NCBI GenBank assembly: GCA_016199865.1
Contig: JACQFV010000078.1
Coordinates: forward strand, 1 to 32,351
Direction: 5' to 3'
DNA: 32,351 nucleotides
Source: Candidatus Zixiibacteriota bacterium
Lineage (GTDB): Bacteria > Zixibacteria > MSB-5A5 > WJJR01
Below are positions 2,412 through 26,613 of this stretch, piece by piece. The position numbers and the translations under genes are program-made. Numbering within the stretch: position 1 is the first letter of the stretch; each line of letters begins with the position of its first letter. The notes beneath the pieces were generated by a model. It did not search any database. It was not told where the DNA came from and saw only the letters and a list, made by a program, of their open reading frames with translations.

Positions 2412-3178
2412 GCATCATCATCGATCCCTCCGCCCATCTGTCCACCAGCATCCGCTGGGGGGAATTTTGCGTGGTCGGCGCCGACGTGGAAATCGGCCCC
2501 GATTGCGAGATCGGCCATCATGTCGTCATAGCCGCCGGAACGAAGATCGGCGCCGGGGTCCGCATCGATGACGGTGCGATCCTGGGCAAGCTACCGATGC
2601 GCGCCGCCAACACCGCCGTGACCAAAGACCAGCCGCTGCCCCCGGCCCAGGTCGGCGACGGCGCCATCATCGGCGCGCACGTCGTCATCTATCGCGGCGC
2701 GACACTGGGGCAGAGGGTCTTGATCGCCGATCTGTCGACCGTGCGCGAGAACGTCACGATCGGCGACTTCACGATCGTCGGTCGCGGCGTGGCCATCGAG
2801 AACGCCTGCACGATCGGCCGTTATTGCAAGCTGGAGACCAACGTGTACATCACCGCCTACTCCACGCTCGGCGACCGGGTGTTCGTCGCGCCGGGCGCCC
2901 TCACCTCGAATGACAACTTTGTCGGGCGGACGGAGGAACGGTTCAAGCATTTTAAGGGCGTGACCGTCGGGCGTGGGGCACGCATCGGCGTCGGCGCCGT
3001 GATTCTGCCGGGCAAGACCGTGGGTGACGATGCCCTGATTGCCGCGGGCGCGGTGCTCACGTCCGATGCCCCGGCCCGTCAGATCATGGCTGGCGTGCCG
3101 GCCCGAGCGTTCCGTGCCGTTCCTTCGGAGCAACTGCTCGATGCCCAGAACTGGCCGGACGTGAAACGAACTTCATGA
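2408..3178 (+). CDS. wbpD: Left-handed beta-helix acetyltransferase, WbpD/WlbB-like
   Basis: The real start is ATG 2408, overlapping the previous stop as ATGA; the ORF-track start at 2237 runs back inside the upstream gene. The 256-residue product is built almost entirely of hexapeptide repeats (for example IGPDCEIGHHVVIAAGTKIG and VTIGDFTIVGRGVAIENACTIG). It ends with the typical cap VGRGARIGVGAVILPGKTVGDDALIAAGAVLTSD...MAGVPARAF. In the WbpD/WlbB step, acetyl-CoA acetylates the 3-amino group of UDP-GlcNAc3NA. The protein is longer than the approximately 200-residue enzymes I know of, because extra helical coils precede the catalytic part. The fold is certain; the substrate is inferred from the neighbours. 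Confidence 0.75.
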   Translation: MSIIIDPSAHLSTSIRWGEFCVVGADVEIGPDCEIGHHVVIAAGTKIGAGVRIDDGAILGKLPMRAANTAVTKDQPLPPAQVGDGAIIGAHVVIYRGATLGQRVLIADLSTVRENVTIGDFTIVGRGVAIENACTIGRYCKLETNVYITAYSTLGDRVFVAPGALTSNDNFVGRTEERFKHFKGVTVGRGARIGVGAVILPGKTVGDDALIAAGAVLTSDAPARQIMAGVPARAFRAVPSEQLLDAQNWPDVKRTS

Positions 3179-3272
3179 TCGGACGCGTTGTTCAATCGGG
3201 GGCCGTGGACGTCGCGCTGGGGTCTGTTGTCGACGGCGCAAACGGTCTCATCATCGCAAGGATGCGCATTAC

Positions 3273-4382: not shown

Positions 4383-4407
4383 TCCTGCCCGACGGAGCCG
4401 AACGCGG

Positions 4408-5520
4408 GTGGGAAGACAAACGACCGTGACACCCAGGCAGGCGGGCAGAGCCCGTCCGGTCGTCGTGACCGTCTTCGGTACCCGTCCCCAGTTCATCAAG
4501 CTGTCGGTTCTCTGGCGACCGTTGGAGCGGCACTTCCGCTCCATTCTGATTGACTCCGGCCAGCACTACGACTTCGCGTTGGCGGCTTCGTTTCACGAGG
4601 AGATCGGCCTGCGGCGCCCGGATTACCACCTGGGTGTCGGCTCGGCTCCGGCAGCGGCGCAGATCGGACGGCTCGCTGATGCATTGGATGGGCGGCTCGG
4701 ACGACTCAGGCCGCAGGGCGTGATCGTCGTCGGCGACACGAGCACGACCGCCGGAGCGGCGATCGCCGCCGCCTACCGTGGTATCCCTTTAGCCCACGTG
4801 GAGGCCGGTTTGCGTTCGTTCGATCGCAGCGCGCCGGAAGAGAAAAACCGCGTCTTGGCTGACCATCTGGCGACCTGGCGTTTCTGCCCCAACCGTGCGG
4901 CAATGACTCACCTGCACAACGAGGGGATTACCGACGGCGTGATCGGATCCGGCGACGTCCTCTATGAAAACTGGCTGCGTTGGACTCCCACGGATCGGCG
5001 CCCGCTGGGAATCGCCAGACGTGAATACTACTTCGTCACCTGCCACCGTGCCGAGAACGTGGATGATCCGGACTGTTTGCGGCGGTTGGTCGATATCCTC
5101 TGCGCCCTGAATCGAATCACCGTCTTTGCCGTTCACCCGCGCGCCGAAAAAAATCTGCGGCGGCTGCATCTTTGGTCACCGCTGGAGCAGACAAGACATC
5201 TTCGGCTGACGGCGCCTCTGCCGCACCGCCCCTCGCTCGTGCTGATCGCCAATGCCCGATCCGTCCTCACCGACTCCGGGGGTGTCCAGCGTGAGGCCTA
5301 CTGGTCGCGCACTCCCTGCGTGGTGCTGCGCGAGGCGACGGAATGGCGTGAGTTGATCGATTGCGGCGCCGGTGTGCTCACGGGCCTCAACGGTGATCGT
5401 GTTCGGCGCGCGTTGGCCGGCCGCGGCGGCGGCAGGCGAGCCGACGATCGGGTTTTCGGCATCCGGAAACCGGCCAAGCGGGTCGCGAGCCGCCTCGCGC
5501 GGGAGCTGATCCACCTGTAA
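4408..5520 (+). CDS. wbpI: UDP-GlcNAc 2-epimerase family protein (WbpI/WecB type)
   Basis: The 370-residue product carries the non-hydrolysing UDP-GlcNAc 2-epimerase motifs in order: VTVFGTRPQFIKLS near the N-terminus, GDTSTTAGAAIAA, HVEAGLRSFDRSAPEEKNR, TCHRAENVDD, and SDSGGVQREAYW-type residues (TDSGGVQREAYW). Next to the three preceding genes, the likely role is inversion at C2 of UDP-GlcNAc(3NAc)A to the manno form, as in WbpI. Ordinary WecB activity on UDP-GlcNAc is the main alternative and cannot be separated by eye. GTG 4408 is the tracked start, with GGAG about ten bases upstream. GTG 4426, behind GGGAAG, is also possible; both precede the conserved fold. Confidence 0.82.
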   Translation: MGRQTTVTPRQAGRARPVVVTVFGTRPQFIKLSVLWRPLERHFRSILIDSGQHYDFALAASFHEEIGLRRPDYHLGVGSAPAAAQIGRLADALDGRLGRLRPQGVIVVGDTSTTAGAAIAAAYRGIPLAHVEAGLRSFDRSAPEEKNRVLADHLATWRFCPNRAAMTHLHNEGITDGVIGSGDVLYENWLRWTPTDRRPLGIARREYYFVTCHRAENVDDPDCLRRLVDILCALNRITVFAVHPRAEKNLRRLHLWSPLEQTRHLRLTAPLPHRPSLVLIANARSVLTDSGGVQREAYWSRTPCVVLREATEWRELIDCGAGVLTGLNGDRVRRALAGRGGGRRADDRVFGIRKPAKRVASRLARELIHL

Positions 5521-5565
5521 GGGCGTCGATAAACTACTCCCGTCGAAGTTCACGACCACAACGCC

Positions 5566-6961
5566 ATGCCCTCTCCTTCCCTGCGACGCGCCGGAGCCAC
5601 GGTAATCGGCGTCGCGCTGTTGGGCAAGGGATTCGGTTTTATGCGCGAAGCGGTCGTCGCCGCTGTGTTCGGCACCACTCACGCCGTTGATCTCTATCTG
5701 GCAGCGCTGGTGGTCCCGATGGTGGTTGCGACCGCGATCACGTACACAGTCCCCAACGCTTTTGTCCCACTCTTCACTCCGGCGAGCGCCGACAAAATCC
5801 GCGCGCGGGCCGTTGCTTGGGGGCTCTTGGGCGCGATGACCGTGCTCTCGCTGGTGATCTGCCTCTTCGGGCGCCCCATGGCGGCTCTCGTAGCATCCGG
5901 ATTTTCGGAATCAGCCCGGGCCGAGGTCGGCTCGCTCGTTTGTCTGGCGGCGTGGGTGATTCCCCTGTCGACCGTGGAGGCCCTCGGGCGCAGCCATCTC
6001 TTGGCGCGTAAACGATTCCTGGGTCCGGGGCTGGCCTATCTGTGGCAGAGTGCCGCGATCATTGCCGCCGCCATTGTGTGGTCCGAACACGGTGCCCATG
6101 CGCTCATGTGGGGGCTCGTCGTCGGGACGGCGCTGGCCGCAGGATGGAATCTCGTTCTCATTCTCGCGGGGCGCGCCGAGGCCGCTGTAGATGCCCCAGG
6201 TGAACCGGTTCAGAATCAATCATCCGGGATCGGACGCTGGGTCGTTGCCGTTTTGCTGGTGGATGCGATGGGGCAGTTGTTCACCGTGATGGATCGGCAC
6301 TTCGGTTCGTATCTCCCGTCCGGCTCGATCGCGGCCCTGCAATACGCCAATCTCGTCGCCTTCCTGCCCTATTCGATCGTAGGCGTGGGCCTGTCCACCG
6401 CGATCTTCCCCTACCTGAGTGATTCGGTGGCCTCCGGCAATGACGCGGACGTCGAGGCGATCCTCGACCGCGCCGTGCGCTGGTCTCTGTTCGGCGTTAT
6501 CCCCATCGTTGTCTGGCTGATGGTCTTCCGTGAACAAACTGTCCGCATACTCTTCGAGCGCGGTGCCTTCGACGCCCGTTCGCGCGAGCTCACGGCGACG
6601 GTCCTGGCGGCCTTCAGCATAGGTCTCGTCCCCAATGTTCTGGCGGCGGTCGGGTCGCGAGTCTTCTATGTGACACGTCGGTGGACCCCCCTTTTTCTGG
6701 GTGCGATGGCTGGAGTGACAACCAAAGCGCTTTGCGGCTGGTGGTGGACCCGTTCCGCCGGCATCGTCGGGCTCGTACGGGCTGCCGGTCTTGGCGCCTG
6801 CAATGGATCGCCTGTCTTTCGGATTTTCCGCCCTGACCCTGGCACTGGGAATTGTCAGCGGGGCCTGTGCCCTCCTACTCCTGGGTCGACGGCTGCGAAT
6901 TCGCGAGGTCGACGTGGCGCTCAGCGAATTACTCCGCGTCACTTTGGGGTGGAGGAACTGA
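5566..6961 (+). CDS. MurJ/MviN-family lipid-linked oligosaccharide flippase, frame interrupted near 6770
   Basis: The N-terminal 400 residues are a clear MviN/MurJ-type polytopic membrane protein (GFGFMREAVVAAVFGTTHAVDLYLAALVVP, then TVMDRHFGSYLPSGSIAALQYANLVAFLPYSIVGVGLSTAIFPYLSD). In a polysaccharide locus such proteins usually act as the Wzx-type flippase for undecaprenyl-linked repeat units. After about 6770 the tracked frame turns into proline/arginine-rich nonsense that runs to 7242 and overlaps the next gene by about 245 bases. The adjacent frame instead continues as a membrane protein (LSFGFSALTLALGIVSGACALLLLGRRLR) and stops at TGA 6959-6961. I therefore end the gene there; joined, it is about 464 residues. 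The break may be a real frameshift or a sequencing or assembly error. Confidence 0.8.
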
Positions 6962-6997
6962 GGGAGTTGAAGCGCATGCCCGTTGGCGCTTTCGCGT

Positions 6998-8182
6998 ATG
7001 AACCAGCCGATCGATACCGTGCTGATCGTCCATGCGTCACGCGAATGGCGGACATTTCACCGCCGCCAGATGCTGCTGGCGCTGGCCGAAGTCCTGCCGT
7101 CGCATGTTGCCTTGCTGTGCGTCAATCGCCCGATCACGCTCGATGTGACCATTTGGAAACACCCGCGAAAATTCTGGGGACGAGCGGCGACATATCAGGA
7201 TGGTCGATTGCACGTTCTGACACCGCGGCTCCTCTTGCATGACATCGTGGCCGCCAAGATACCCGGTGCCCCCGCGGCCAATGCCCGTCTGCTCCGGCGA
7301 ATCTTGCAGGGGCACTTACGTCGGCACTATCCACACATACGGCGGACTATCCAGTGGATCTATCATCCAATCCAACGATGGGTCTTCGATGCACTTCCCG
7401 ACGCGGGTCGTATTTACGAATGTTATGACGAGTACTCCCGCGCTCCGGATGGACGGCTCGTTGCGTCGCGCCAGCGAAAGGAGCGATCTCTACTACGAAT
7501 GGCAGATCTGACGATTGTTACAGCCGGGGCACTCGTGCAGCCCAGGCAGCAGGCCGCCAGGCAATTGGCGTTGATCACCAACGGGGTGCCCGACTTTTTC
7601 TTCGATGCGGCGAACAACGAGTCGGGTACGCTCGGGGTCATACCTCACCCCCGCATCGGCTATCTGGGCAACGCCCGCCCGCCATTCGACATCGATCTAC
7701 TGGCAGCGGTTTTCCGTCGACGACGCGACTGGCACCTGGTGCTGGCCGGTCCCATTGACAAATCACTTCAGATCCGCGCACTGCGGGCATTGCCGAATGT
7801 TCATTTCTTGCCGTCACGTCCTCTGGAAGAGGTACCCGCGCTCTTGCGCCAATGGGACGTGGGATTGATCCCGTTTAAGTTGAATGATTTCTCCCGGGCG
7901 CTCAACCCGCTCAAACTGGGGGAATATCTGGCGTGCGGCCTCCCGGTTGTGGCGACCGATCTGCCGGAACTGCGCGCCCACGGTGATCTTGTCTGGCGGA
8001 CTCCCAACGAGTCCGCCGGTTTCGAAGAAGCGATTGCCCTTGCCCTGGCCGTCGACCGCAAGTCCCATGCCCGTCGCGCCGTGGCCGCGGCGCGTGAGAT
8101 CACGTGGACGGCCATCGCACGGCGTTACATTTTGCCGCAGTTGGAGGCGGTCTTCTTCCTGGATCGCAACCGTTCGGTCTGA
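6998..8182 (+). CDS. GT-B glycosyltransferase, TuaH/GT4-like
   Basis: The tracked ORF begins at TTG 6983; ATG 6998 (MNQPIDTVLIVHASREW) fits the family's N-terminal first strand better and gives 394 residues. The C-terminal nucleotide-sugar-binding half is clear: RIGYLGNARPPFDIDLLAAVF, WHLVLAGPIDK, VHFLPSRPLEEVPALLRQWDVGLIPFK, and NPLKLGEYLACGLPVVATDLPEL. This last block matches the K-x-x-E-Y-L-A-x-G-x-P-V-V signature of TuaH-like GT4 enzymes. It should add one sugar to the lipid-linked repeat unit at the cytoplasmic membrane face. No convincing Shine-Dalgarno is visible, and there are 36 bases between the corrected flippase stop and this start. Codon use looks less GC-rich at third positions than in neighbouring housekeeping genes. 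Confidence 0.8.
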   Translation: MNQPIDTVLIVHASREWRTFHRRQMLLALAEVLPSHVALLCVNRPITLDVTIWKHPRKFWGRAATYQDGRLHVLTPRLLLHDIVAAKIPGAPAANARLLRRILQGHLRRHYPHIRRTIQWIYHPIQRWVFDALPDAGRIYECYDEYSRAPDGRLVASRQRKERSLLRMADLTIVTAGALVQPRQQAARQLALITNGVPDFFFDAANNESGTLGVIPHPRIGYLGNARPPFDIDLLAAVFRRRRDWHLVLAGPIDKSLQIRALRALPNVHFLPSRPLEEVPALLRQWDVGLIPFKLNDFSRALNPLKLGEYLACGLPVVATDLPELRAHGDLVWRTPNESAGFEEAIALALAVDRKSHARRAVAAAREITWTAIARRYILPQLEAVFFLDRNRSV

Positions 8183-8193
8183 AGGCGCAAACG

Positions 8194-8298
8194 ATGGGTC
8201 AAATGGAAACATCGAGGTCCGCCCAGACTGCCGACGCCCACGGTGCACACCGACCGAGAATTCTCATCGTCTGCCCCCGTATCGTAAGCATCTATATT
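8194..8298 (+). pseudogene. Detached N-terminal fragment of the following glycosyltransferase
   Basis: In the frame of ATG 8194 (or 8203) the peptide includes RPRILIVCPRIVSIY, a typical first beta-strand and loop of a GT-B glycosyltransferase. After about 8298 this frame loses all resemblance and runs on to 8454 over the next gene. The rest of a glycosyltransferase continues in the neighbouring frame from about 8300. Joining the two pieces still leaves the usual segment of roughly 30 or more residues between the first strand and the GMGS motif missing. This suggests a deletion with a frame change. The strand motif is seen directly; the missing length is judged from memory of family members. 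Confidence 0.5.
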
Positions 8299-8299
8299 T

Positions 8300-9202
8300 G
8301 TGTACCTGGGAATGGGCTCCATCCGGGGTCTCCAGAGGGCATGCCGCGAGTCCGACGGGCTCGTAATTTGGTTCGCGGGTCGGCATGCCGCCCCCGCGAT
8401 GGTGTCTGCACGTTGGCATCGTCGGCCAGTCGCCGTCGTCGTCGGCGGTTATGAAGTCGCGTGGGTGCCGGAGATCGAATATGGAATTCCGCCGCGTTCG
8501 CTCCGGGAACGAACCGTGCGAGCCATCCTATCAACGGCTGATCTGCTTCTTCCGGTTTCCGAACATACTCTGTATGAGATGAGAACACGTTTCCCGCAGG
8601 TGAACCAGAGAACGCAGCGAATCTACAACGGGGTCGACACGGCCTCTTTTCAAACCGATCCGTCTGCGGTGAGAGGGGGAGTTCTCTGTGTGGGTACCAT
8701 CAATCGCGAGACCGTGAACAAGAAGGGCTGGCAGCTGTTCTGGAATACAGCGGCTCTCTTACCCCACGTACCATTCATCGCGGTAGGTCGTGCGCCCGAC
8801 GCTGTCGGTGGCGGGATGATCGCACGGCGGCCACCTAATCTGACGTGGCTAGGTGAATTGACCGGAGAGTCGCTACGCCGCCAATTCCAGACGGCAAGAG
8901 TTTATTTTCAGGGATCGGCGCACGAGAGTTTCGGTGTTGCCTTAGCCGAGGCGATGGCCTGCGGATGCATACCCGTCGTGTCCCGTCGCGGGGCCTTGCC
9001 GGAGGTGGCTGGAGAGGCCGCTTTCTACATAGACGCCCTCACGGCGGAGTCGGCGCAGGCGGCCGTGCGGGAAGCGCTACTGGCACCGGAGAGCCGTCGC
9101 TTGGCAGCGCGGCAACGCATTGTCGAGAATTTCGACATCGGGCGGAGACGCACTGAGCTGACGGATGCCTTGCACGAAATGCTCCAATCGGCGAGAAGGT
9201 GA
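8300..9202 (+). CDS. GT4-type glycosyltransferase, N-terminally truncated
   Basis: The 300-residue frame begins at a GTG inside what should be the middle of the N-terminal domain (VYLGMGSIRGLQRACRESDGLVIWFAGRHAAPAM). It then shows a near-complete GT-B enzyme: VVVGGYEVAWVPEIEYG, LLLPVSEHTLYEMR, IYNGVDTASF, GVLCVGTINRETVNKKGWQLF, and the donor-site block YFQGSAHESFGVALAEAMACGCIPVVSRRGALPEVAGEAAF. The last block carries the E-x7-E-type motif of GT4 enzymes. The catalytic half is intact but the first strand of the fold lies in another frame upstream, so the gene is probably inactive or misassembled. The start at 8300 is only the first possible codon, not a supported one; a TAA closes this frame at 8285. 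Confidence 0.7.
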   Translation: MYLGMGSIRGLQRACRESDGLVIWFAGRHAAPAMVSARWHRRPVAVVVGGYEVAWVPEIEYGIPPRSLRERTVRAILSTADLLLPVSEHTLYEMRTRFPQVNQRTQRIYNGVDTASFQTDPSAVRGGVLCVGTINRETVNKKGWQLFWNTAALLPHVPFIAVGRAPDAVGGGMIARRPPNLTWLGELTGESLRRQFQTARVYFQGSAHESFGVALAEAMACGCIPVVSRRGALPEVAGEAAFYIDALTAESAQAAVREALLAPESRRLAARQRIVENFDIGRRRTELTDALHEMLQSARR

Positions 9203-9448
9203 CCCCGCCGCCAGGCCACCTGTCCATCCAGAGCCGTCTTCAAGTACTTTGATGAGGGAGAGAGGACTCCGCCTCTCGTTTTTCACCCGCGCCGGGGAGC
9301 CCCGGGCCGTATCATTGTTGCCTCGTTTGATCCCCTCACCCAATTGCCGTTGGTCACCGCACACGAGCTGACACCCGGTGCAATTGCGCTGGCTGCCGGC
9401 GTGGCATTGGGCTATCATGGGCAGGGGGTGTTGTGGTGCGTCGACTGA
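9203..9448 (+). pseudogene. Unassigned open frame without start codon, possible gene remnant
   Basis: Directly after the TGA of the glycosyltransferase and in the same frame, about 81 codons remain open to a TGA at 9446-9448. The peptide looks protein-like: PGRIIVASFDPLTQLPLVTAHELTPGAIALAAGVALGYHGQ. There is no ATG or GTG in its first half, so it cannot stand alone as a normal gene. Its stop overlaps ATG 9448 of the next gene as TGATG, an arrangement expected for the end of a translated gene. I do not recognise the family. It may be the 3' end of a deleted gene, or a chance open frame in GC-rich DNA. No other gene fits this 230-base gap. Confidence 0.3.
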
Positions 9449-11778
9449 TGAACTCCGTAACGCATTGGCTGGGGCGATGGCGTTGGGCCGTCTGGGATTT
9501 GGCGGCCCTGCAAGGCGCGTTCGCCGTGGCTTTATGGTCTCACTTCCACGGCGCTCAGCCCAGTTCGGGGTGGCCCATGGCGCCTGGGGACTATGTTGGG
9601 CCCGCGGGCTGGATGGCGATTGGGTGGCTCTTCCTGTTCGCGGCCTTTGGACTTTACCGCAAGGAGGGATTTGCGTCACGCACGGCGGAGCTGAGTCGGG
9701 TATTCCATGCCGTGACATTTGGCGTGTTGCTCCTGGCCGTGGTTACATTCGACCCGGCCAAGCCCTTCACCGACTCACGAACCACCTTGGTGGGTTATTG
9801 GGCGGCGCTGCTTCTGCTTCTGGGAGGCGGTAGGCTGCTTCCCGCCCTTCAGGCCGATGCCGGAGGCCGCCGCGACGGCGGAGTCATCAACCCGCGCCGG
9901 CTCGCCATCCTTGCGGCGGACGGGATCGCCGTCCTCGCCTCGTACTACATGGCCTTCTGGCTGCGGTTCGATGGGCACATCCCCGCCGATGCCTGGGCCG
10001 CCTTCTGGAACATGCTGCCTTTGGTATTCCTGATCCGTGTGGCCTCGTTCACCTATTTCCGACTGTATTCCGGTGTGTGGCGCTACGCGTCAGTGAATGA
10101 TCTGCTGTCGATTCTCAAAGCCGCCTCTGTTGGCACGACGCTGTTGGTTCTGCCCGTGTTCTTCTTCGGTGTCCCCGGGTATCCCCGTTCGGTTTTCATC
10201 ATCGACTGGTTCCTGATCGTGACCTTCTTGGGTGGATTGAGGTTTGCCTTGAGGGTGCTGCGCGAGTCGACGCCGCGATTTCTGCGTCGGGGGCGACGGA
10301 TCCTGATCGTGGGAGCGGGAGACGCCGGGGAAATGCTGGTGCGTGAACTGGGGAAGGATCCGAGCGGGCCTCTCGTGCCGGTGGCGTTTGTCGACTCCGA
10401 TCCGCAAAAGCACGGCGCCCGTCTCCACGGAATTCCCGTGGTGGGCGGCCTGGACTCCGTGGGAGCAGCGGTGAAACGCCACCGCGTCGCGGAGATTCTG
10501 ATCGCCATCCCCTCGGCCACAGGCGAACAGATGCGAACGATCGTGGCCGCCTGCTGCCGGGCCGGCGTGCCTTTCAAGACCGCGCCGTCGTTGCGCGAGA
10601 TCATCGACGGACAATTGAGCGTACGGCAGGCGCGCGATGTCAAAGTCGAGGACATCCTGCGCCGTCCGCCGGTCGACGCCCATCCCGAAGCGGTCGCCCG
10701 CTGGCTCGCCGGACGGCGGGTGATGGTCACCGGAGGCGCGGGATCGATCGGCGCCGAGCTCGTGCGTCGGATCGTTCGTTTTGAGCCCTCCGTTGTCTAT
10801 CTGGTCGACCGGGCGGAAAATCCGTTGCACGACTTATTGGACGAACTCTCGCGCACGCCGACGGGCGCGCCCGTCGAGGGAGTGCTGGTCGATATCTGCG
10901 ATCGTAACCGATTTCATGCGCTGTTCGCGCAACGGGTCCCGGATGTCATCTTCCATGCGGCCGCCTACAAGCAGGTGCCGCTGTCGGAGGAATACCCCGA
11001 TGCCGCCGTGATCAACAACGTCGGCGGCTCGCGCTATCTCATGGATTGGTCGCTGGAACGGGGCGTCGAGACGTTCATCAATATCTCCACCGACAAGGCC
11101 GTGCGGCCCTGCAGCGTCATGGGGGCCACCAAACGGATCACCGAGATTCTGGCAATGCGCCGCGCCGCTGAGTTTCAGACGAAATTCGTCAGCGTGCGGT
11201 TCGGCAACGTCCTGGGGACCGATGGTTCGGTGGTCCCGTTGTTCGAGCGGCAGATCCGTGCCGGTGGTCCCGTCACCGTCACCCACCGTGACATGACACG
11301 GTACTTCATGACCGCCGGCGAGGCGGCCATCCTGGTGCTGCATGCGGCCGCCATCGGCGACAATGGACAACTGCTGGTCCTCGACATGGGCGAGCCGATC
11401 CGCGTCTACGATCTGGCGCGCGACCTGATTCTGCTGTCGGGTCTTCGTCCCGACGTTGATATCCCCATCGAATTCATCGGGCTGCGTCCGGGTGAGCGCC
11501 TCACCGAGGATTTCTTCGAGCCGGACGTCATCCCCCGGCGATCCGGGCATGAACGGATCTGGATCGTCGATGCCGTCGACGACGCCGACGGCGACTTTGA
11601 ATCGCGCGTCACCGAGCTTCTATCCGTCGCCCGCACCGGCGATCAACCGGGAACGCTAGAGATGCTGCAGAAGATTGTGCCACGCTACAAGGCGTCGGCC
11701 ATCGCGCCGAAAAACGGCCGCGCGACCGGGCGCACCGAATCAAAGACGCCCAAGCAAGATCTGATTCCCAAGGCATGA
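9433..11778 (+). CDS. WbpM/CapD-type membrane nucleotide-sugar 4,6-dehydratase with doubled membrane module
   Basis: The 781-residue protein ends in a classical large FlaA1/CapD enzyme. A Rossmann domain starts at about 290 (RRILIVGAGDAGEMLVREL). It is followed by an extended SDR domain with VTGGAGSIG at about 432-440, HAAAYKQVPLSEEYP, NISTDKAVRP, and VMGATKR. S552, M563 and K567 form the Ser-Met-Lys triad described for WbpM in place of Ser-Tyr-Lys. This class dehydrates UDP-HexNAc to the 4-keto-6-deoxy sugar at the membrane. Two consecutive multi-helix modules precede it, each closing with a LYR or LYSGVWRY-like motif. The usual protein has one, explaining the extra length over approximately 620-660 residues. 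GTG 9433 lies behind AGGGGG; ATG 9448 is an equally possible start. Confidence 0.88.
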   Translation: MVRRLMNSVTHWLGRWRWAVWDLAALQGAFAVALWSHFHGAQPSSGWPMAPGDYVGPAGWMAIGWLFLFAAFGLYRKEGFASRTAELSRVFHAVTFGVLLLAVVTFDPAKPFTDSRTTLVGYWAALLLLLGGGRLLPALQADAGGRRDGGVINPRRLAILAADGIAVLASYYMAFWLRFDGHIPADAWAAFWNMLPLVFLIRVASFTYFRLYSGVWRYASVNDLLSILKAASVGTTLLVLPVFFFGVPGYPRSVFIIDWFLIVTFLGGLRFALRVLRESTPRFLRRGRRILIVGAGDAGEMLVRELGKDPSGPLVPVAFVDSDPQKHGARLHGIPVVGGLDSVGAAVKRHRVAEILIAIPSATGEQMRTIVAACCRAGVPFKTAPSLREIIDGQLSVRQARDVKVEDILRRPPVDAHPEAVARWLAGRRVMVTGGAGSIGAELVRRIVRFEPSVVYLVDRAENPLHDLLDELSRTPTGAPVEGVLVDICDRNRFHALFAQRVPDVIFHAAAYKQVPLSEEYPDAAVINNVGGSRYLMDWSLERGVETFINISTDKAVRPCSVMGATKRITEILAMRRAAEFQTKFVSVRFGNVLGTDGSVVPLFERQIRAGGPVTVTHRDMTRYFMTAGEAAILVLHAAAIGDNGQLLVLDMGEPIRVYDLARDLILLSGLRPDVDIPIEFIGLRPGERLTEDFFEPDVIPRRSGHERIWIVDAVDDADGDFESRVTELLSVARTGDQPGTLEMLQKIVPRYKASAIAPKNGRATGRTESKTPKQDLIPKA

Positions 11779-11844: not shown

Positions 11845-13110
11845 ATGCTTGATCTGAAGTTCATCCGCGAGAATCCCGATCTGGTCCGGCGCGCCATCCG
11901 TGACAAGAAGGCGCCGGACCATCTGGATGAACTCTTGGGCCTCGACTCACGCCGCCGCGCCGTGATTGGGGAAGCCGAAGCGCTCAAGCACGAACGCAAC
12001 GTGGTTTCTCAGCAGATCGCCGACGCCAAGAAGGCCGGTCGGGAGGCGGCCGATGCGATCGTCGCCATGCGGGCTGTCTCCGAACGTGCCCAGTCTCTCG
12101 ATATTCAACTGCGCGAGATCGAAGAGCAGATTCTCCATTGGCAGCTGCGCATTCCCAACGTGCCCCATCCCGACTGTCCGGTCGGCGACGAATCACAGAA
12201 CCGTGAAGTGCGGTCATGGGGGAGAAAACCCGCGCTGGCATTCACTCCGGCGCCCCATTGGGAATTGGGCCAGAAACTCGGCATCTATGATGGCGTCGCC
12301 GGAACCACTGTTGCCGGGTCCGGATTTTTTGTGCTCCGTGGCGCCGGCGCTCGCATGCAGCGGGCCCTGATCAATTTCATGATCGAGCGCCACGTGGCCA
12401 ACGAGTACGTTGAGCACCGTCTCCCGTATCTGGTCACCGCCAAGACCATGCAGGGAACCGGGCAGCTGCCCAAGTTGGCCGAGGACATGTACCACATCGA
12501 ATCGGATGATCTGTGGTTGATTCCCACCGCCGAAGTTCCCCTGACGAATTTGCGCGCCGGGTCGGTCCTGCCGGCCGGGTCGCTGCCTTTGCGGTCCGTT
12601 GCCTACACGCCCTGCTTCCGCCGCGAGGCCGGCGCCGCGGGCAAGGACACGCGCGGTATGATGCGGGTGCACCAATTCGACAAGGTGGAACTGGTCAAAA
12701 TCGTCGAACCGGAAACCGCCGAATCGGAACTGGAGACCCTGACCGCCGATGCGGAGGCGATCCTCCAGGCGCTGGAGCTTCCCTATCGGGTCCGCCTCCT
12801 GGCCACCGGTGATCTGTCATTCGCCGGCGCCAAATGCTACGATCTCGAAGTCTACGCCACCGGGGTCGACGCATGGCTGGAGGTTTCCTCCTGCTCGATG
12901 TTCACCGATTTTCAGTCGCGGCGCATGGACCTGCGTGTCCGGCCCAAAGACGGCGGCAAGCCCTATCACCCGCACACGCTCAATGGCTCCGCCCTGGCGT
13001 TGCCCCGCACCATGATCGCCATCTGGGAGAATTATCAGACGGACAAGGGATCGATCCGCGTTCCGGAAGTCCTCATCCCATACATGGGCGGGCTTGAGGA
13101 GATCGCCTGA
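11845..13110 (+). CDS. serS: Seryl-tRNA synthetase
   Basis: Class II synthetase charging tRNA-Ser (and tRNA-Sec where present) in the cytoplasm. ATG 11845 gives the standard N-terminus MLDLKFIRENPDLVRRAI and 421 residues, the usual length; the tracked start at 11830 only adds five residues. Residues about 30-105 form the two-helix antiparallel coiled-coil arm that grips the tRNA long variable arm. The catalytic part has LIPTAEVPLTNLRAG, motif 2 in TPCFRREAGAAGKDTRGMMRVHQFDKVELV, and motif 3 in LNGSALALPRTMIAIWENYQ. It lies 66 bases after the polysaccharide locus and marks the switch to housekeeping genes. Confidence 0.98.
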   Translation: MLDLKFIRENPDLVRRAIRDKKAPDHLDELLGLDSRRRAVIGEAEALKHERNVVSQQIADAKKAGREAADAIVAMRAVSERAQSLDIQLREIEEQILHWQLRIPNVPHPDCPVGDESQNREVRSWGRKPALAFTPAPHWELGQKLGIYDGVAGTTVAGSGFFVLRGAGARMQRALINFMIERHVANEYVEHRLPYLVTAKTMQGTGQLPKLAEDMYHIESDDLWLIPTAEVPLTNLRAGSVLPAGSLPLRSVAYTPCFRREAGAAGKDTRGMMRVHQFDKVELVKIVEPETAESELETLTADAEAILQALELPYRVRLLATGDLSFAGAKCYDLEVYATGVDAWLEVSSCSMFTDFQSRRMDLRVRPKDGGKPYHPHTLNGSALALPRTMIAIWENYQTDKGSIRVPEVLIPYMGGLEEIA

Positions 13111-13185
13111 TCCCGTTCATGGAATGATCTCTTCGGGGCCCGGGTTGTGTGACCGCGCCGCTTGGATCTCCGATAATCGGGTATC

Positions 13186-14466
13186 ATGAAACGTCGCCTG
13201 CGGCGCATCCTCCATGACCGGGCCGGATACACCGGCCTGCCTTTGGCATTCAAAGGGGTGCTGATCCTCGGCATGGCAACGATTGCCGGGGTTCTAATTT
13301 ATTCCACGCATGCGCTCGTCAGTGAACTGAAGAAATCGGAGGGGCGGCTGGCCAAGGCGTACGCTGGACACTGGAAACGGGCCGCCGAATCCACCGACCC
13401 CAGCGAGATCGGCTACCTGTTCGATCAGATCATTCTCCGCAGCGACTTTCCCATCGTTGTGGCCGACCCGCAGGGTCAGCCCCTGTATTGGCGCGGCCTG
13501 CCCGACATTGATGACCACGACACCACCGCCACAACCCGTCATCGCATCCTCCAAATGATGGACCGGATGGGGAAGGACTATCCGCCGGAGGAAATCACCT
13601 ACAACGGCCAGACGCTCTACCGGCTGCACTACGGGAATTTCCAGCTGGTCAATGCCCTGCGCCGCCTGCCATACATCGGCGTCGCCGTCATGGTGCTGTT
13701 TCTATTCATCGCCTATGTCGGATTCCGCAACATCAAGCGCGCCGAGCAACGTTACATCTGGGTGGGGATGGCCAAGGAAACCGCGCATCAACTCGGCACA
13801 CCGCTCATGTCGCTCTTGGGCTGGTTGGAGCGTCTGGAGAGCATCTCTGCGCCCGATGGGAAGGGTCTTGCGCCGACCTCTGGCTCCGAACTGGGGCAAA
13901 TTGCTGTGGCCATGCGCGCCGACGTTGTCCGGCTCAATCGGGTGGCGCAGCGCTTCAGTCAGATTGGATCGGAACCGGACCGCAAGGTCCAGCCCCTTGA
14001 GCCGGTGGTGCGCGAGGTGGCCGCCTATTTCCGCGCCCGTCTGCCGCATCAGGGTAAAGGCGTGGCCATCATCGAAGAATACGCGCCGACCGAATCGGTT
14101 CCCATCAACGCCGAATTGATCGCTTGGGTGCTGGAAAATCTCATCAAGAATGCCTTGGAGGCGGTTGATCCCAAGTCTGGCCGAATCGAGATTGCCCTCA
14201 CGCCCAGTTCGGAAGGTGGCGTCCAGATCAGCGTCTCCGACAACGGACGGGGGATGACGATCCGGGAACAGCGCAAGATTTTCCATGCCGGCTTCACCAC
14301 GAAAAAACGTGGCTGGGGGCTGGGATTGACTCTGGCGCGGCGGATCGTTATGGAGTATCACGGCGGCGATCTGTATCTGGACTCGTCCATTCCCCACGAG
14401 GCCACACGATTTATTCTCCTGTTGCCGGGCAATTCCGGTAAAATGCCGGCGACGCCGCGACCATAA
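13186..14466 (+). CDS. Membrane sensor histidine kinase, PorY-like
   Basis: The 426-residue kinase has two membrane helices, about 23-41 (KGVLILGMATIAGVLIYS) and 162-180 (PYIGVAVMVLFLFIAYVGF), bracketing a periplasmic sensor region of about 120 residues. The dimerisation and phosphoacceptor helix reads WVGMAKETAHQLGTPLMSLLGWLERLE with His201. The ATP-binding domain has the N box LENLIKNALEAV, the G1 box SDNGRGM, and the G2 box RGWGLGLTLARRIVMEYHGG. The AHQLGTP form of the H box is one I associate with Bacteroidetes kinases. The REC-PglZ regulator starts 12 bases downstream, making it the obvious phosphotransfer partner. The stimulus is unknown. It is close to PorY in layout, but orthology is not proven by eye. 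Confidence 0.9.
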   Translation: MKRRLRRILHDRAGYTGLPLAFKGVLILGMATIAGVLIYSTHALVSELKKSEGRLAKAYAGHWKRAAESTDPSEIGYLFDQIILRSDFPIVVADPQGQPLYWRGLPDIDDHDTTATTRHRILQMMDRMGKDYPPEEITYNGQTLYRLHYGNFQLVNALRRLPYIGVAVMVLFLFIAYVGFRNIKRAEQRYIWVGMAKETAHQLGTPLMSLLGWLERLESISAPDGKGLAPTSGSELGQIAVAMRADVVRLNRVAQRFSQIGSEPDRKVQPLEPVVREVAAYFRARLPHQGKGVAIIEEYAPTESVPINAELIAWVLENLIKNALEAVDPKSGRIEIALTPSSEGGVQISVSDNGRGMTIREQRKIFHAGFTTKKRGWGLGLTLARRIVMEYHGGDLYLDSSIPHEATRFILLLPGNSGKMPATPRP

Positions 14467-14478
14467 AGAGGGGAGTCC

Positions 14479-16050
14479 ATGGCTGCCACGGTCAAACACG
14501 TTCTCTGGGTCGACGACGAGATCGACATGCTGGCCTCGCATTTCCTGCTGTTGCGGGAACGCGGCTACGAGGTGACCGGCGCCCACTCGGGCGATGATGC
14601 CTTGGAATACATCCAGAAGCGGCGATTCGATTTGGTCCTCCTGGATGAGCATATGCCGGGCCGTGACGGCCTCTCGACTCTGGTGGAGATCAAGAAGCTC
14701 GATCCCAATCTGCCCGTGGTGATGGTGACCAAGAGTGAGGAAGAACACCTCATGGACGAGGCCTTGGGCAAGAAGATCGACGACTACCTGACCAAGCCGG
14801 TCAATCCCTCTCAGGTCATTTCCGTGGTCAAGAAGCACTTGGAGCGCCGGAAGATTCAGTCGGAACATCTGGCCCGGCAGTATGTCGAGGATTTCCGCCG
14901 CCTTCAGGAGACAACCACCGCCGAGCGGGATTGGCGCCATTGGCTTCAGGTTCATCAGACGATGTCGCGATGGGACGTGGAATTGGATCGCTTTACCAAT
15001 CTCGGCCTGGACGATACCCATCGCGAGCACAAACGGGAATTGAATGCCGAATTCGGACGCTGGGTCGAGCGGCAGTACCCGACCTGGCTGGTGGACCTGT
15101 CGGCGTCGGACCGTCCACCTTTGTCCATCGACATCGTGCCGCGCCACGTCGCGCCGCACTTGAAAGAAGGGCGGAAGCTGTATTTCTTCGTCATTGACTG
15201 CATGCGGCTGGATCACTGGTTGGGGATCGAACCGGAATTGGCGGAGTATTTTCAGATCGAGCGCGAGTATTACTATTCCATTCTTCCCTCCGCGACCCCG
15301 TTTTCGCGCAATGCCATTTTCTCCGGTCTGTTCGCCGATGAAATTCAACGACTCTATCCCGAACTGTGGCAGATCGGCGACAAGGACGAGTTTTCACGCA
15401 ATCGGCTGGAACGTCAACTCTTGGACCAGCAACTGGCCCGCCTCGGCGTGCGTCTTCCCGGCGAGGCCAAGTATGTCAAGGTTCTGGACATGAATGAGGG
15501 AGAGAATCTCGCCCGAAAGTTTTCATCCTACAAGAGCGCGCCGCTTCTGTCGGTCGTGTACAATTTCATCGATCATCTGTCGCACGGCCGCTCGGAGGAT
15601 GAAATCCTCCATGAACTGGCCGCCGACGAGGCCGCCTTCCGCGGATTGATGAAGACCTGGTTTGTCAACTCATCCTGGCTGAAAGTGCTGCGCAAGATCG
15701 CACGCGATCCCGCCGCCGTGGTGGTTGTGACCACCGACCATGGCAGCATCATGGGGACACGCGGCACCGTTGCGCATGGCCGCCGGGACACCTCCTCGAA
15801 TCTCCGGTACAAGTACGGGGACAACCTCAATGCCGATCCCAAAGAGGCCGTTCTCGTCACCGATCCCAAACTCTGGCGCCTGCCGCGCTTTACCCCGAGC
15901 ACAACTTATCTATTGGCGAAGGAGGACTTCTTCTTCGTCTATCCGACGAATTTCAATGAGTATCAGCGCAAGTTCGCCAACACCTTTCAGCATGGCGGCA
16001 TCTCGCTGCCTGAAATGGTCCTGCCCGTGGCAACGCTGACGCCGAAGTAG
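14479..16050 (+). CDS. porX: REC-PglZ response regulator, PorX-like
   Basis: The 523-residue protein starts with a receiver domain: VLWVDDEIDML with acidic D12/D13, phosphoacceptor D56 in LVLLDEHMPG, T84 in VMVTKS, and K107 in YLTKPVN. A helical linker (about 120-220) leads to a PglZ domain of the alkaline phosphatase superfamily. Candidate metal ligands are D240 (FFVIDCMRLDH), T273 (LPSATPFSRNAIFSG), D365/H366 (NFIDHLSH), D420/H421 (VVTTDHG) and H433 (VAHGRRD). This order matches PorX, the Porphyromonas regulator of type IX secretion, whose PglZ domain is reported to be a zinc-dependent phosphodiesterase on oligonucleotides. All key residues appear intact. It lacks a DNA-binding domain, so output would be enzymatic or by protein contact. 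An AAAGAGGGGAG ribosome site precedes the start. Confidence 0.9.
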   Translation: MAATVKHVLWVDDEIDMLASHFLLLRERGYEVTGAHSGDDALEYIQKRRFDLVLLDEHMPGRDGLSTLVEIKKLDPNLPVVMVTKSEEEHLMDEALGKKIDDYLTKPVNPSQVISVVKKHLERRKIQSEHLARQYVEDFRRLQETTTAERDWRHWLQVHQTMSRWDVELDRFTNLGLDDTHREHKRELNAEFGRWVERQYPTWLVDLSASDRPPLSIDIVPRHVAPHLKEGRKLYFFVIDCMRLDHWLGIEPELAEYFQIEREYYYSILPSATPFSRNAIFSGLFADEIQRLYPELWQIGDKDEFSRNRLERQLLDQQLARLGVRLPGEAKYVKVLDMNEGENLARKFSSYKSAPLLSVVYNFIDHLSHGRSEDEILHELAADEAAFRGLMKTWFVNSSWLKVLRKIARDPAAVVVVTTDHGSIMGTRGTVAHGRRDTSSNLRYKYGDNLNADPKEAVLVTDPKLWRLPRFTPSTTYLLAKEDFFFVYPTNFNEYQRKFANTFQHGGISLPEMVLPVATLTPK

Positions 16051-16069
16051 GATTGGCGGCGTCGCGATA

Positions 16070-16516
16070 ATGATCACATCCCTCTGCCATTCCGTCGCCG
16101 AAACCGAGGCGCTCGCCGTCGAATTCTCCCGAACTCTACAGTCGGGCGCCTGGGTTGGTCTGATCGGCCCGTTGGGCGCCGGAAAATCCGTGTTTGCACG
16201 TGCCGTGGGCCGGGCAGTGGGGGTCCGAGGCGAAATGCCCTCACCGACGTACACCTTGATGACCGTGCACACGGGACGTTGCCCGGTGTATCATATGGAT
16301 ATGTACCGGATTAGCTCGGACGCCGAGCTGGAATTCGCGGGCATCTTGCCGTATTTTTCCGGGCCGGGAATCTGCCTGGTCGAATGGGCCGAGCGGGTGC
16401 GATCGGCTTGGCCCCCGGCGGGATGGATCGTCACGATTGCGATCACGCGCGACAGCGATCGCAGCATCGAGATTGCACGGTTCGGTCCAGCAACCAATAG
16501 GCAGGACGGAACGTGA
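16070..16516 (+). CDS. tsaE: TsaE, ATPase of the tRNA t6A37 threonylcarbamoyl complex
   Basis: Small P-loop ATPase of 148 residues, normal for the family. The Walker A motif is GPLGAGKS at 33-40, followed by MPSPTYTLM and YHMDMYRI, both TsaE hallmarks, and CLVEWAERV near the C-terminus. It works with TsaB and TsaD to load threonylcarbamoyl onto A37 of ANN-decoding tRNAs. It begins 19 bases after the PorX-like gene and its stop overlaps the GTG of tsaB. No tsaD is visible in the window. Confidence 0.96.
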   Translation: MITSLCHSVAETEALAVEFSRTLQSGAWVGLIGPLGAGKSVFARAVGRAVGVRGEMPSPTYTLMTVHTGRCPVYHMDMYRISSDAELEFAGILPYFSGPGICLVEWAERVRSAWPPAGWIVTIAITRDSDRSIEIARFGPATNRQDGT

Positions 16517-20703: not shown

Positions 20704-21546
20704 ATGCCGGCATTAAGAGACGATTGGCAGCCAACTCGTTCCCCGAACCCCTGGGGGAGAGGCCTCCTGCCGCCGGCGGTGCGCGCCTTGATCACCGCCA
20801 ATGTGGCCGTCTTCGTCGTGCAGCTGTTCCTCGATGCGCCGATGGTCCGTTTTGGCGGCCTCTCGCCGGTGCTTGTGGTCCATGGCGCGATCTGGCAATT
20901 GTTCACCTACATGTTTCTGCATGGCGGCCTCCTGCACCTGGCCTTCAACATGCTCGGGCTATGGATGTTCGGCCGCGACCTCGAACACGACTGGGGCAGC
21001 CGGGCCTTCCTGAAGTATTACCTGGTCTGCGGCCTCGGCGCCGGCGTCGTCACTCTGGCGGCATTGTGGGGCCAGACGGCCCCGACGATCGGCGCCTCTG
21101 GCGCCATCTACGGCGTCCTCTTGGCGTTCGGCATGACCTACCCCGACCGCTACATCTATCTGTGGTTTTTCCTGCCCATCAAGGCCAAGTACATGGTCAT
21201 GCTCTTCGGCGCGATGGAGTTGATCTCGTCCTTGCAGTACAGCCCGGATGGCATCGGACATTTCACCCATCTGGGCGGTCTGGCCGTGGGGTTCTTGTAC
21301 TTGAAGTTTGGCGTCGGCGATCGGCCGGTCCGTTTTCCGCGTCCGTTGGCTTGGATGGGGCAGTGGCGCGCCCGCCACAGGGCCCATTTGCTCCGCCGCC
21401 GCTGGGACGAGCACCGCGAGTTGATGGACGCCGTCGACCGCGTGCTCGACCGGATCAATCAGGTCGGCTACGACAATCTCACGGACGAAGAAAAGGCGAC
21501 TCTGGAACGTGCCTCGCGCCGCCTGACCTCCGAATCCCAAAAGTAA
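20704..21546 (+). CDS. Rhomboid-family intramembrane serine protease
   Basis: The 280-residue membrane protein has the rhomboid hallmarks. The first helix is followed by WQLFTYMFLHGGLLHLAFNMLGLWMFGRDLE (L1 loop and second helix). The catalytic serine lies in TIGASGAIYG (S132), and the histidine in HFTHLGGLAVG (H189 in the HxxGxxxG pattern). The dyad is complete, so activity is expected: cleavage of single-pass membrane proteins within the bilayer. A soluble C-terminal tail of about 70 residues (RELMDAVDRVLDRINQVGYDNLTDEEKATLERAS) is a helical extension seen in many bacterial rhomboids. Substrates are unknown. The gene stands alone between gaps of 237 and about 330 bases. Confidence 0.94.
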   Translation: MPALRDDWQPTRSPNPWGRGLLPPAVRALITANVAVFVVQLFLDAPMVRFGGLSPVLVVHGAIWQLFTYMFLHGGLLHLAFNMLGLWMFGRDLEHDWGSRAFLKYYLVCGLGAGVVTLAALWGQTAPTIGASGAIYGVLLAFGMTYPDRYIYLWFFLPIKAKYMVMLFGAMELISSLQYSPDGIGHFTHLGGLAVGFLYLKFGVGDRPVRFPRPLAWMGQWRARHRAHLLRRRWDEHRELMDAVDRVLDRINQVGYDNLTDEEKATLERASRRLTSESQK

Positions 21547-23831: not shown

Positions 23832-26591
23832 ATGGCTGCCGCCGCACGACCGCGCATCTTCCTGATTGACGGCACGGCGCTGGCCTACCGCGCCCATTTT
23901 GCCTTCATTCGCAATCCTCTGCGCAATGCCAAGGGGCAGATTACTTCGGCGGTGTATGGCGTCGCCAATTCCCTGCTCAAGATCCGCCGCGAGGAGAAAC
24001 CGGATTATTGGATCTTCGCCTTCGACCGGCCCGAGCCGACCTTCCGCGATGAGATGTACGCCGAATACAAGGCCACGCGTCAGCCGACCCCGGAAGACTT
24101 GGTTGAACAACTGCCTCTCGTAAAGGAAGTGGCCGGAGCGCTTGGGTGCCCGTTGATCGAAATGGCTGGAAAGGAGGCCGATGATCTGATCGCGACTCTC
24201 GCTTCGCGTGCGGTGCAGGCCGACCTTGATGTGGTGATTGTCTCCGGCGACAAAGACCTTTTGCAACTGGTCAACGATCGGGTGACGATCTATAACCCGC
24301 ACAAAGGTGGCGCCGAAATCGAACGGCTCGATCCGGCGGGAGTCAAAGAGAAGTTCGGGGTCCCTCCGGAGCGGGTGCGCGACGTTCTGGCGTTGATGGG
24401 CGATACATCGGACAACGTCCCCGGCGTCCCGGGGATCGGCCCCAAGACCGCCGTCGAACTGGTCAACGAGTACGGCGACTTGGAGTCCGTCCTGTCGTCT
24501 ATCCCGGCGATCAAACGTCCGGCGTTGAGAGAGAAACTTTCGACTCATGCCGGCCAAGCCCGCTTATCGATGCGCCTGGTGACCCTCGATACGGACTGCC
24601 CGATCGAGTGGACTCCGGCTCAATGGCAGGCCACGTCCCTGGATGAGCGCGCGGCGGCGCGGATGTTCATGGAACTGGGTTTCAAGTCGCTCGTGAAGTG
24701 GCTTGGCCCCGATCTCTCCGCGCCCCAGCCGGAGGGAGCAGCCAGTAGCCCCGGGGCGATTGTTGCTGCATCGCCGGGCGACACAAAGGGCTCTTACCAC
24801 CAAATCCATTCGATAGCGGAATTGGAGCAACTTGTCGGGATCATGCGAAAGGCCGAATGGCTGGCGGTTGACACTGAAACAACGTCATTGTCTCCGGTCG
24901 GCGCCGATCTGGTCGGCATCTCATTGTCGTTTGCACACGGCGAGGCCTACTACATTCCCGTCGGACATGATGAAGCGGCGGCGAATTTGCCCATGCCGGA
25001 GACACTCAAATGCCTCCGTCCGGTTCTCACGGGAGAGGGCCCGCGTCTGATCGCGCAGAATGTCAAGTACGATGCCCAGGTCTTTGCTCGCCAGGGGATC
25101 GATTTGCACCCGATCGGCTTCGACCCGATGTTGGCCTCGTACTGCCTGGACCCCGGCGGAAGAGCCCACGGGCTTGACGCTTTGGCATTGCAGTATTGCC
25201 ACCACACGATGCAGCCGATCACCGAACTGATCGGCAGCGGCTCCCACCAGAAAAACTTCCGCGAGGTCCCGGCCGAGCAGGCGACCTACTATTCGGCTGA
25301 AGACTCAGACTACACCTTCCGGCTCTTCCACGTCCTGTCACCGCAACTGGCCCCGGCCGGGGTCGACCGGCTGTTCGCCGAGATTGAACTGCCATTGGCG
25401 CCGGTCTTGGGTCGCATGGAGCAGGCCGGAGTTCGAATTGATCGTCCCTATTTGCAGGAATTGTCGAAGACGATGAAGCGTCAGATCGACGGTCTCGAAC
25501 GGCGCATCTACGACGCTGCCGGGGAGGAATTTAATCTCAATTCCCCCGTCCAATTGGGCCACATTCTCTTTGATGTGCTGAAATTGTCCCCCGGCCGCAA
25601 GACCGCCAAGACCGCGCAGCGGGCGACCGACGTTGCCGTGCTGGAGAAACTGGCGGCCGAGCACGACGTGCCCCGCCTGATGTTGGAGTACCGCCAACTG
25701 GCGAAGTTGAAATCGACTTACGTCGACGCTTTGGTGGCGCTGGTCCACCCGGCCACCGGTCGCGTGCACACGTCGTTCCATCAAGCCGTTGCCGCTACCG
25801 GGCGGCTCTCGTCCGCCGATCCCAATCTGCAAAACATCCCCATCCGCACCGAGGAGGGACAGAAGATCCGCCGCGCCTTCGTTCCCCGCGACGATGACCA
25901 CGTCTTGCTCGTGGCCGATTATTCCCAGATCGAATTGAGACTGATGGCGCACTTCTCGCAGGATCAGGCGCTGCTGACGGCATTCCGCGACGCAGCCGAC
26001 GTTCACGCCCGCACCGCGGCGGAGATTTTTGGGATTCCCGAGGCCGAAGTGACACCCGCCCAAAGGCGCCTGGCCAAGACCGCCAACTTCGGCATCATTT
26101 ATGGGGTATCAGCGTATGGCCTGTCGCAGCAGTCGGATATGAGCATGGGCGAGGCCAAGATTTTCATCGAGATGTACTTTAAGCGCTATCCCGGAGTGAA
26201 GCGTTTCATCGAAGCCACCATTCAACAGGCGCGACAGGATGGTCTGGTGCGGACTCTGTTCGGACGGCGTCGGTTCCTCCCGGACTTATCCTCGTCAAAC
26301 CGCCAGCGTCGGGAGTTTGCCGAGCGCACGGCGGTGAACACGCCGCTTCAAGGCACGGCTGCCGATATCATCAAGAAGGCGATGATCGAAATCGACCGTC
26401 GCCTGCGGGACGGGGGTAAAAGGTCGGTGATGACCTTGCAGGTTCATGATGAATTGGTATTTGACGCCCACCGGACTGAGATCGATCGGCTCTCGGGGAT
26501 GGTGAAGGAGTCGATGGAAAATGCCGTCACCCTCGATGTCCCGCTGGTTGTCGATGTCGGCGTCGGACCCAATTGGCTGGAGGCGAAATGA
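23832..26591 (+). CDS. polA: DNA polymerase I
   Basis: Full-length 919-residue enzyme with three domains. The 5'-3' exonuclease comprises roughly the first 290 residues (FLIDGTALAYRAHFAF, GKEADDLIATLA, VSGDKDLLQLV, GVPGIGPKTA). The 3'-5' proofreading domain has intact motifs: D347 and E349 in AVDTETTSL, NVKYDAQVF, and YSAEDSDYTF. The polymerase has motif A VADYSQIELR (D696), motif B RRLAKTANFGIIYGVSAYG, and motif C QVHDELVFD (D873, E874). Many bacterial PolA proteins have lost proofreading; this one should keep it. It repairs gaps and processes Okazaki fragments. The tracked start is a TTG one codon before ATG 23832. The start lies 45 bases after dsbD. Confidence 0.98.
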   Translation: MAAAARPRIFLIDGTALAYRAHFAFIRNPLRNAKGQITSAVYGVANSLLKIRREEKPDYWIFAFDRPEPTFRDEMYAEYKATRQPTPEDLVEQLPLVKEVAGALGCPLIEMAGKEADDLIATLASRAVQADLDVVIVSGDKDLLQLVNDRVTIYNPHKGGAEIERLDPAGVKEKFGVPPERVRDVLALMGDTSDNVPGVPGIGPKTAVELVNEYGDLESVLSSIPAIKRPALREKLSTHAGQARLSMRLVTLDTDCPIEWTPAQWQATSLDERAAARMFMELGFKSLVKWLGPDLSAPQPEGAASSPGAIVAASPGDTKGSYHQIHSIAELEQLVGIMRKAEWLAVDTETTSLSPVGADLVGISLSFAHGEAYYIPVGHDEAAANLPMPETLKCLRPVLTGEGPRLIAQNVKYDAQVFARQGIDLHPIGFDPMLASYCLDPGGRAHGLDALALQYCHHTMQPITELIGSGSHQKNFREVPAEQATYYSAEDSDYTFRLFHVLSPQLAPAGVDRLFAEIELPLAPVLGRMEQAGVRIDRPYLQELSKTMKRQIDGLERRIYDAAGEEFNLNSPVQLGHILFDVLKLSPGRKTAKTAQRATDVAVLEKLAAEHDVPRLMLEYRQLAKLKSTYVDALVALVHPATGRVHTSFHQAVAATGRLSSADPNLQNIPIRTEEGQKIRRAFVPRDDDHVLLVADYSQIELRLMAHFSQDQALLTAFRDAADVHARTAAEIFGIPEAEVTPAQRRLAKTANFGIIYGVSAYGLSQQSDMSMGEAKIFIEMYFKRYPGVKRFIEATIQQARQDGLVRTLFGRRRFLPDLSSSNRQRREFAERTAVNTPLQGTAADIIKKAMIEIDRRLRDGGKRSVMTLQVHDELVFDAHRTEIDRLSGMVKESMENAVTLDVPLVVDVGVGPNWLEAK

Positions 26592-26613
26592 CCCAAGCAG
26601 AGGTGGACCGGCA

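Follow-up and report, generated by a model that had tools for sequence, protein, structure and literature searches.

A PorY/PorX two-component pair of Candidatus Zixibacteria, and its probable role in type IX secretion in a genome with no detectable GldL/GldM motor

The window analysed here, the whole 32,351-nucleotide stretch of Candidatus Zixiibacteriota DNA, contains a sensor kinase gene followed by a gene for a receiver-PglZ protein, and the locus raises the question of which process this pair controls. The preliminary description had assigned the two proteins to the PorY and PorX families, had seen no type IX gene, and had suggested that the pair may have a target outside type IX secretion, possibly reached through a nucleotide signal. 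In Bacteroidota, PorX is phosphorylated by PorY (PMC5005315) and is a zinc-dependent phosphodiesterase (PMC11320123, PMC10951265). Its mode of action is disputed, with gene regulation, oligonucleotide cleavage and CheY-like binding to PorL all put forward (PMC5005315, PMC8050853, PMC10951265, PMC11320123). The type IX secretion system (T9SS) is called exclusive to Bacteroidetes in recent work (PMC10951265), and another source names a few other FCB phyla as carrying it, Zixibacteria not among them (PMC11285876). A literature search on Zixibacteria and type IX secretion returned no report in the literature covered.

The regulator gene, porX, lies at positions 14479-16050 of the forward strand and encodes 523 residues, arranged as a receiver (REC) domain (approximately 7-118), a helical bundle (approximately 123-205) and a PglZ domain of the alkaline-phosphatase fold (approximately 216-523). 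Against NF052313, the NCBI curated PorX equivalog model, the protein scored 623 bits (cut-off 300) over residues 7-523 of 523, with an E-value of 4e-187 that is far beyond chance, and the Pfam REC and PglZ domains were both above cut-off (92 and 51 bits). The solved PorX proteins of P. gingivalis and F. johnsoniae (PGN_1019/PG0928 and Fjoh_2906; PDB 7pv7, 7pvk, 8ted, 8p6f) share the same domain order and were matched end to end with 419-422 bits (422 for 7pv7/8ted) at approximately 40% identity. In an AlphaFold2 model (pLDDT 87.8) the agreement extended to structure: the top 17 Foldseek matches were all PorX chains, the best being 7pvk, PorX with pGpG (TM 0.88/0.90). The closest named relatives, 75-77% identical, came from Candidatus Zixiibacteriota MAGs. 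A PorX phylogeny, a check of the kind that the preliminary description had proposed, grouped the protein with other Zixibacteria PorX; Bacteroidia, Ignavibacteria and KSB1 formed separate groups. Since the tree broadly agrees with taxonomy, PorX appears to have descended mostly vertically. Judged from sequence, the protein is an ortholog of PorX and not a distant REC-PglZ paralog.

PglZ domains also occur in BREX phage defence, and the regulator might be a relative of those proteins instead of PorX. The fold is shared (TM 0.49 to 9zn5), and a weak match to BREX-3 PglZ was obtained (81 bits against a cut-off of 250; 66 bits in PADLOC). However, BREX PglZ has no REC domain, no BREX genes were found among the neighbours in the window, and the low BREX score stands against a PorX match of 623 bits over the full length. 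We thus rejected BREX PglZ membership, and consider the chance that the protein belongs there to be negligible.

Is the switch intact? In an alignment of 101 homologs, the seven zinc-site and catalytic residues were invariant: D240 (codon 15196-15198; D237 in F. johnsoniae), T273, the catalytic nucleophile and a metal ligand (15295-15297; T271), D365 and H369 of a D-x3-H motif at the Zn1 site (15571-15585; D360/H364), the adjoining ligands D420 and H421 (15736-15741; D414/H415), and H505, the third Zn1 ligand (15991-15993; H499), all on the forward strand. In F. johnsoniae PorX, T271, D237, D414 and H415 form one zinc site and D360, H364 and H499 the other (PMC11320123); the ligands given here were placed by aligning the two proteins. 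The receiver is equally well preserved, with the phosphoacceptor D56 (14644-14646, forward strand), T84 and K106 invariant in all 101 homologs and the further partners D12 and D13 present in 100. The preliminary description had argued for an intact PglZ site and had warned that a failure of the proposed ligands to superpose on PorX would speak against the family; the superposition favoured PorX, and the site is indeed intact, although three of the named residues were misassigned. D56, T84, D240, T273, D365, D420 and H421 were correctly placed. Residue 107, given as the conserved lysine, is a proline and the lysine is K106, while H366 and H433, given as metal ligands, are unconserved (position 366 is mostly M or I among the homologs), the Zn1 ligands being D365, H369 and H505.

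That the catalytic residues are invariant across all 101 homologs speaks for selection on catalysis. In P. gingivalis, a mutant in the catalytic threonine retains significant gingipain secretion, in contrast to the zinc-site mutant D361A/H365A, which loses most of it (PMC11320123). Zinc binding may therefore matter more than catalysis and, as the catalytic mutant still secretes, PorX may act chiefly by something other than its phosphodiesterase.

The kinase gene, of the porY type, occupies positions 13186-14466 of the forward strand and encodes 426 residues. Two hydrophobic helices (approximately 20-45 and 157-184), enclosing an extracytoplasmic sensor region (approximately 46-155), indicate a membrane sensor histidine kinase. 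The phosphoacceptor H201 lies in the H box ETAHQLGTP, and the N box (N318-N322), G1 (D352) and G2 (GWGLGL, 376-381) are likewise intact and conserved in the alignment. Pfam HATPase_c was above cut-off and HisKA below it; Foldseek matched the kinase model mainly to generic kinase cores and gave no identity for the sensor domain. With a profile built from kinases linked to porX, each of 17 genomes yielded exactly one full-length ortholog (317-555 bits), far above the runner-up kinase, which reached at most 122 bits. This set includes Bacteroidia, where the ortholog does not adjoin porX; every PorX-bearing Bacteroidia genome tested had exactly one. Nearly all aligned orthologs share the H box ETAHQ(L/I)GTP, which, together with the two-helix sensor kinase layout, is also common to PorY (P. 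gingivalis PGN_2001/PG0052). Distances among kinases and among regulators were correlated (r = 0.82; 0 of 2000 permutations as high), a mirror-tree result that reports co-inheritance, could be produced by shared species history alone and is no proof of interaction. By comparison with Bacteroidia orthologs other than P. gingivalis PorY itself, the kinase is assigned as the PorY ortholog. Upstream of porY, a match resembling a promoter (13149-13177) was discarded, as a promoter and terminator scan of 12900-16300 gave matches near chance level.

Both genes are complete, and 12 bases separate the kinase stop codon (14466) from the porX start (14479); the adjacency, coordinates, strand and H box first reported all hold. 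The arrangement differs from that in P. gingivalis, where the pair is far apart (PMC8050853, PMC5005315). Among relatives, porY lay directly 5' of porX in all 20 loci examined and in 39 further loci, drawn from Zixibacteria, Latescibacterota, Gemmatimonadota, Krumholzibacteria, Eisenbacteria, Fermentibacteria and Aminicenantes. The exceptions in that set were two loci truncated by the end of their contig (L083, L112) and one from the Gemmatimonadetes MAG J002 (L087), which, unlike its relatives, has no porY, serS or tsaE near porX. No adjoining porY was found in the KSB1, Ignavibacteria, Balneolaceae, Rhodothermales or Bacteroidia loci, and the linkage state switches once on either tree, that of the kinase or that of the regulator. 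Three records may be mislabelled: a MAG recorded as 'Gemmatimonas phototrophica' with a Latescibacterota-like locus (L070), and two MAGs recorded as 'Bacteroidetes' with a PorX that falls among those of Ignavibacteria (L098, L101).

The flanking genes are conserved as well. Upstream, serS (11845-13110, forward strand) is kept in the clade with linked porY-porX; downstream, and outside the switch itself, tsaE (16070-16516, forward strand) is the gene after porX in Zixibacteria, as it is in most loci of Flavobacterium, Algoriphagus, Ignavibacteria and KSB1. The order serS-porY-porX-tsaE-tsaB-rimI-accD-folC recurs across much of the linked clade. This conserved synteny, extending to porX-tsaE in Flavobacteria, is support, separate from the sequence score, for positional orthology with the PorX of Bacteroidota. 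Taken together, model score, structure, phylogeny and synteny bear out the PorY and PorX family assignment, and the product of 14479-16050 is a full-length PorX ortholog.

Other parts of the window were noted in passing. Positions 107-11778, ending next to serS-porYX, form an exopolysaccharide or surface-sugar locus with genes for a Wzz/GNVR chain-length protein, a Gfo/Idh dehydrogenase, a NeuD/LpxD-like hexapeptide transferase, a PseC-like aminotransferase, a WecB-like epimerase, a MurJ-like flippase, glycosyltransferases and a 781-residue sugar transferase-dehydratase. A rhomboid protease at 20704-21546 has a DUF6576-like tail and matched the rhombosortase model weakly (37.6 bits, cut-off 84). 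Between polA and coaE lies a 602-residue open reading frame (26521-28329) that matched neither NCBIfam, searched up to E = 1e-6, nor Pfam, searched up to E = 1e-3.

No other por gene was found near porYX within the 32 kb window, in agreement with the original observation, so that any link to secretion is one of genomic co-occurrence and not of an operon. That observation did not extend to the genome, a MAG of 2.24 Mb (207 contigs, 94% complete, 0.14% contaminated). It encodes a SprA of 2008 residues (596 bits, cut-off 200) and a PorU sortase with a peptidase C25 domain (576 bits, cut-off 420), followed directly by a PorV-family protein and then by an M6-like protein that carries a sorting tail; additional PorV-family proteins are present. 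The type A sorting domain gave 31 matches, approximately 28 of them above cut-off, and the best tails, typically QNYPNPFNAGT...KKMVLLK, run to the stop codon. The genome thus resembles Bacteroidota with a T9SS in having SprA/Sov, PorU, the PorV family, type A sorting domains and PorX. It differs from them in its SprA, which is shorter and scores lower, the two Flavobacteriia exceeding 2800 bits. SprA of many non-Bacteroidota is approximately 2000 residues long and matches the model mainly at positions 40-1950 of 2319, compared with approximately 2400 residues in Flavobacteriia. In the PorU region (L185, on contig C177 of the window's own genome, G000), the M6-like metalloprotease with the type A tail (3983-7318) matched the NCBIfam 'T9SS-dependent M6-like inactivated metalloprotease' below cut-off. 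A 909-residue open frame in the same region (1267-3993) has its PorV-family match split into N- and C-terminal pieces, which stand approximately 500 residues apart and flank a propeller-like repeat that is possibly an insertion in PorV.

These findings bear directly on the suggestion that the target of the pair lies outside type IX secretion and is reached through a nucleotide second messenger. The absence of type IX genes from the window, housekeeping neighbours (serS, tsaE, accD, folC) that give no hint of secretion, and an intact PglZ site in a family solved with pGpG all agree with it. However, SprA, PorU-PorV and about 28 proteins with sorting domains are encoded in the same genome, and PorX occurs together with SprA across phyla. 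Another target for the pair is thus unsupported, and we regard this explanation as improbable. A nucleotide-signal role as such is possible, because the modelled active site matches that of PorX solved with pGpG. Regulation of type IX secretion is the most economical reading, as SprA, PorU-PorV and the sorting-domain proteins stand in the same genome; that the pair is the orthologous PorY/PorX of Candidatus Zixibacteria and controls the organism's own type IX secretion has, in our estimate, a probability of roughly 0.8.

The co-occurrence extends well beyond this genome. PorX was above cut-off in all 38 genomes formed by the window's own genome and class-level relatives, and SprA in 37 of them, the sole miss being a genome 74% complete. 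SprA was also above cut-off in 27 of 28 further PorX genomes, covering Zixibacteria, Latescibacterota, Gemmatimonadota, Krumholzibacteria, Eisenbacteria, Fermentibacteria, KSB1, Ignavibacteria, Balneolaceae, Rhodothermales and Bacteroidia; neither protein was above cut-off in any of 14 control genomes. Since nearly every sampled genome has both proteins and the sample has no lineages that lost SprA, this pattern indicates strong coexistence and is no test of dependence.

A genome search for further type IX components, also proposed in the preliminary description, recovered SprA and the type A sorting domains, and drew a blank on the motor. No match to the profiles of the GldL/GldM motor and the ring protein GldN (TIGR03513, TIGR03517, PF12081, PF19841) was obtained in the window's own genome, a difference from the Bacteroidota T9SS. 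TIGR03513, PF12081 and PF19841 matched in Bacteroidia as positive controls; GldM, first run with TIGR03517 without such a control, was repeated with PF12081, together with GldL, on genomes including Bacteroidia. The GldL and GldM profiles matched in the same six of 36 PorX-bearing genomes (60-236 bits), every one of them from Bacteroidia. The other 30, including two class relatives assembled as single contigs (G023, G024), gave no match to either profile. GldN was found only in the two Flavobacteriia among 31 genomes, a set that took in these two of the six Bacteroidia.

PorX of Bacteroidia binds the cytoplasmic domain of PorL/GldL, an interaction likened to that of CheY with the flagellar switch (PMC5005315, PMC10951265), and in F. 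johnsoniae PorX binds GldL only if D54 can be phosphorylated or mimics phosphorylation (PMC5005315, PMC10951265). The Zixibacteria pair might work in the same way, phosphorylated PorX binding a PorL/GldL that is too diverged for detection or missing from the assembly. The two-hybrid binding of PorX to PorL and GldL in two Bacteroidia agrees with this (PMC5005315, PMC10951265), as does a MAG that is 94% complete and fragmented. Against it, the profiles were empty in 30 of 36 PorX genomes, single-contig relatives among them, and the organisms concerned gave easily detected SprA, PorU, PorV and PorX. The motor profiles, built mainly from Bacteroidia sequences, could miss a diverged protein. On balance, a Bacteroidia-like motor partner seems rather unlikely. 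Because SprA, PorU, PorV and PorX were readily detected in the same genome, we favour, with fair confidence, a true absence of the motor from the Zixibacteria genome over its divergence or replacement. For the PorX lineages as a whole, the motor is either an addition of the Bacteroidia, or replaced elsewhere, or too diverged for the profiles.

Orthology, intact residues, SprA, PorU, PorV and sorting-domain proteins in the genome, one PorY per genome and empty motor profiles were computed here; control of secretion by the Zixibacteria pair is proposed by analogy with experiments in Bacteroidota. PorY would cross the inner membrane twice, sense an extracytoplasmic signal, autophosphorylate on H201 and phosphorylate PorX at D56 by phosphotransfer, as Bacteroidota experiments suggest. 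Phosphorylation and zinc would, by the same analogy, favour a PorX dimer, and the PglZ domain would bind two zinc ions and cleave small phosphodiesters, for example short linear oligonucleotides. The output would be transcription of type IX genes, directly or via a sigma factor, and/or control of an oligonucleotide signal, the most likely form being type IX gene regulation tuned by the phosphodiesterase. CheY-like binding to a PorL/GldL motor subunit is unlikely in Zixibacteria, as neither GldL nor GldM is detectable. PorX of this lineage, which differs from its Bacteroidota counterparts in its host, in the closely adjoining porY and in having no detectable GldL/PorL partner, probably works without PorL, via gene regulation and/or its phosphodiesterase.

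Neither the linked porYX arrangement nor its combination with an undetectable motor was found in the literature covered, and earlier reports of motor-less lineages may exist. Because other T9SS parts are present and the motor bound by PorX is not recognisable, the PorY/PorX switch looks older than the motor. On a broader proposal, to which we give even odds, PorY/PorX, SprA, PorU, PorV and sorting domains would form an ancient T9SS core across the FCB superphylum, with the GldL/GldM(/GldN) motor a later addition in Bacteroidia (or replaced elsewhere); the original job of PorX would then not have been CheY-like motor control, and the Zixibacteria T9SS would be PorX-regulated without a motor. 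Lineages that combine PorX and its intact PglZ site with a T9SS translocon, and that have no detectable motor, represent a natural experiment that separates the roles of PorX.
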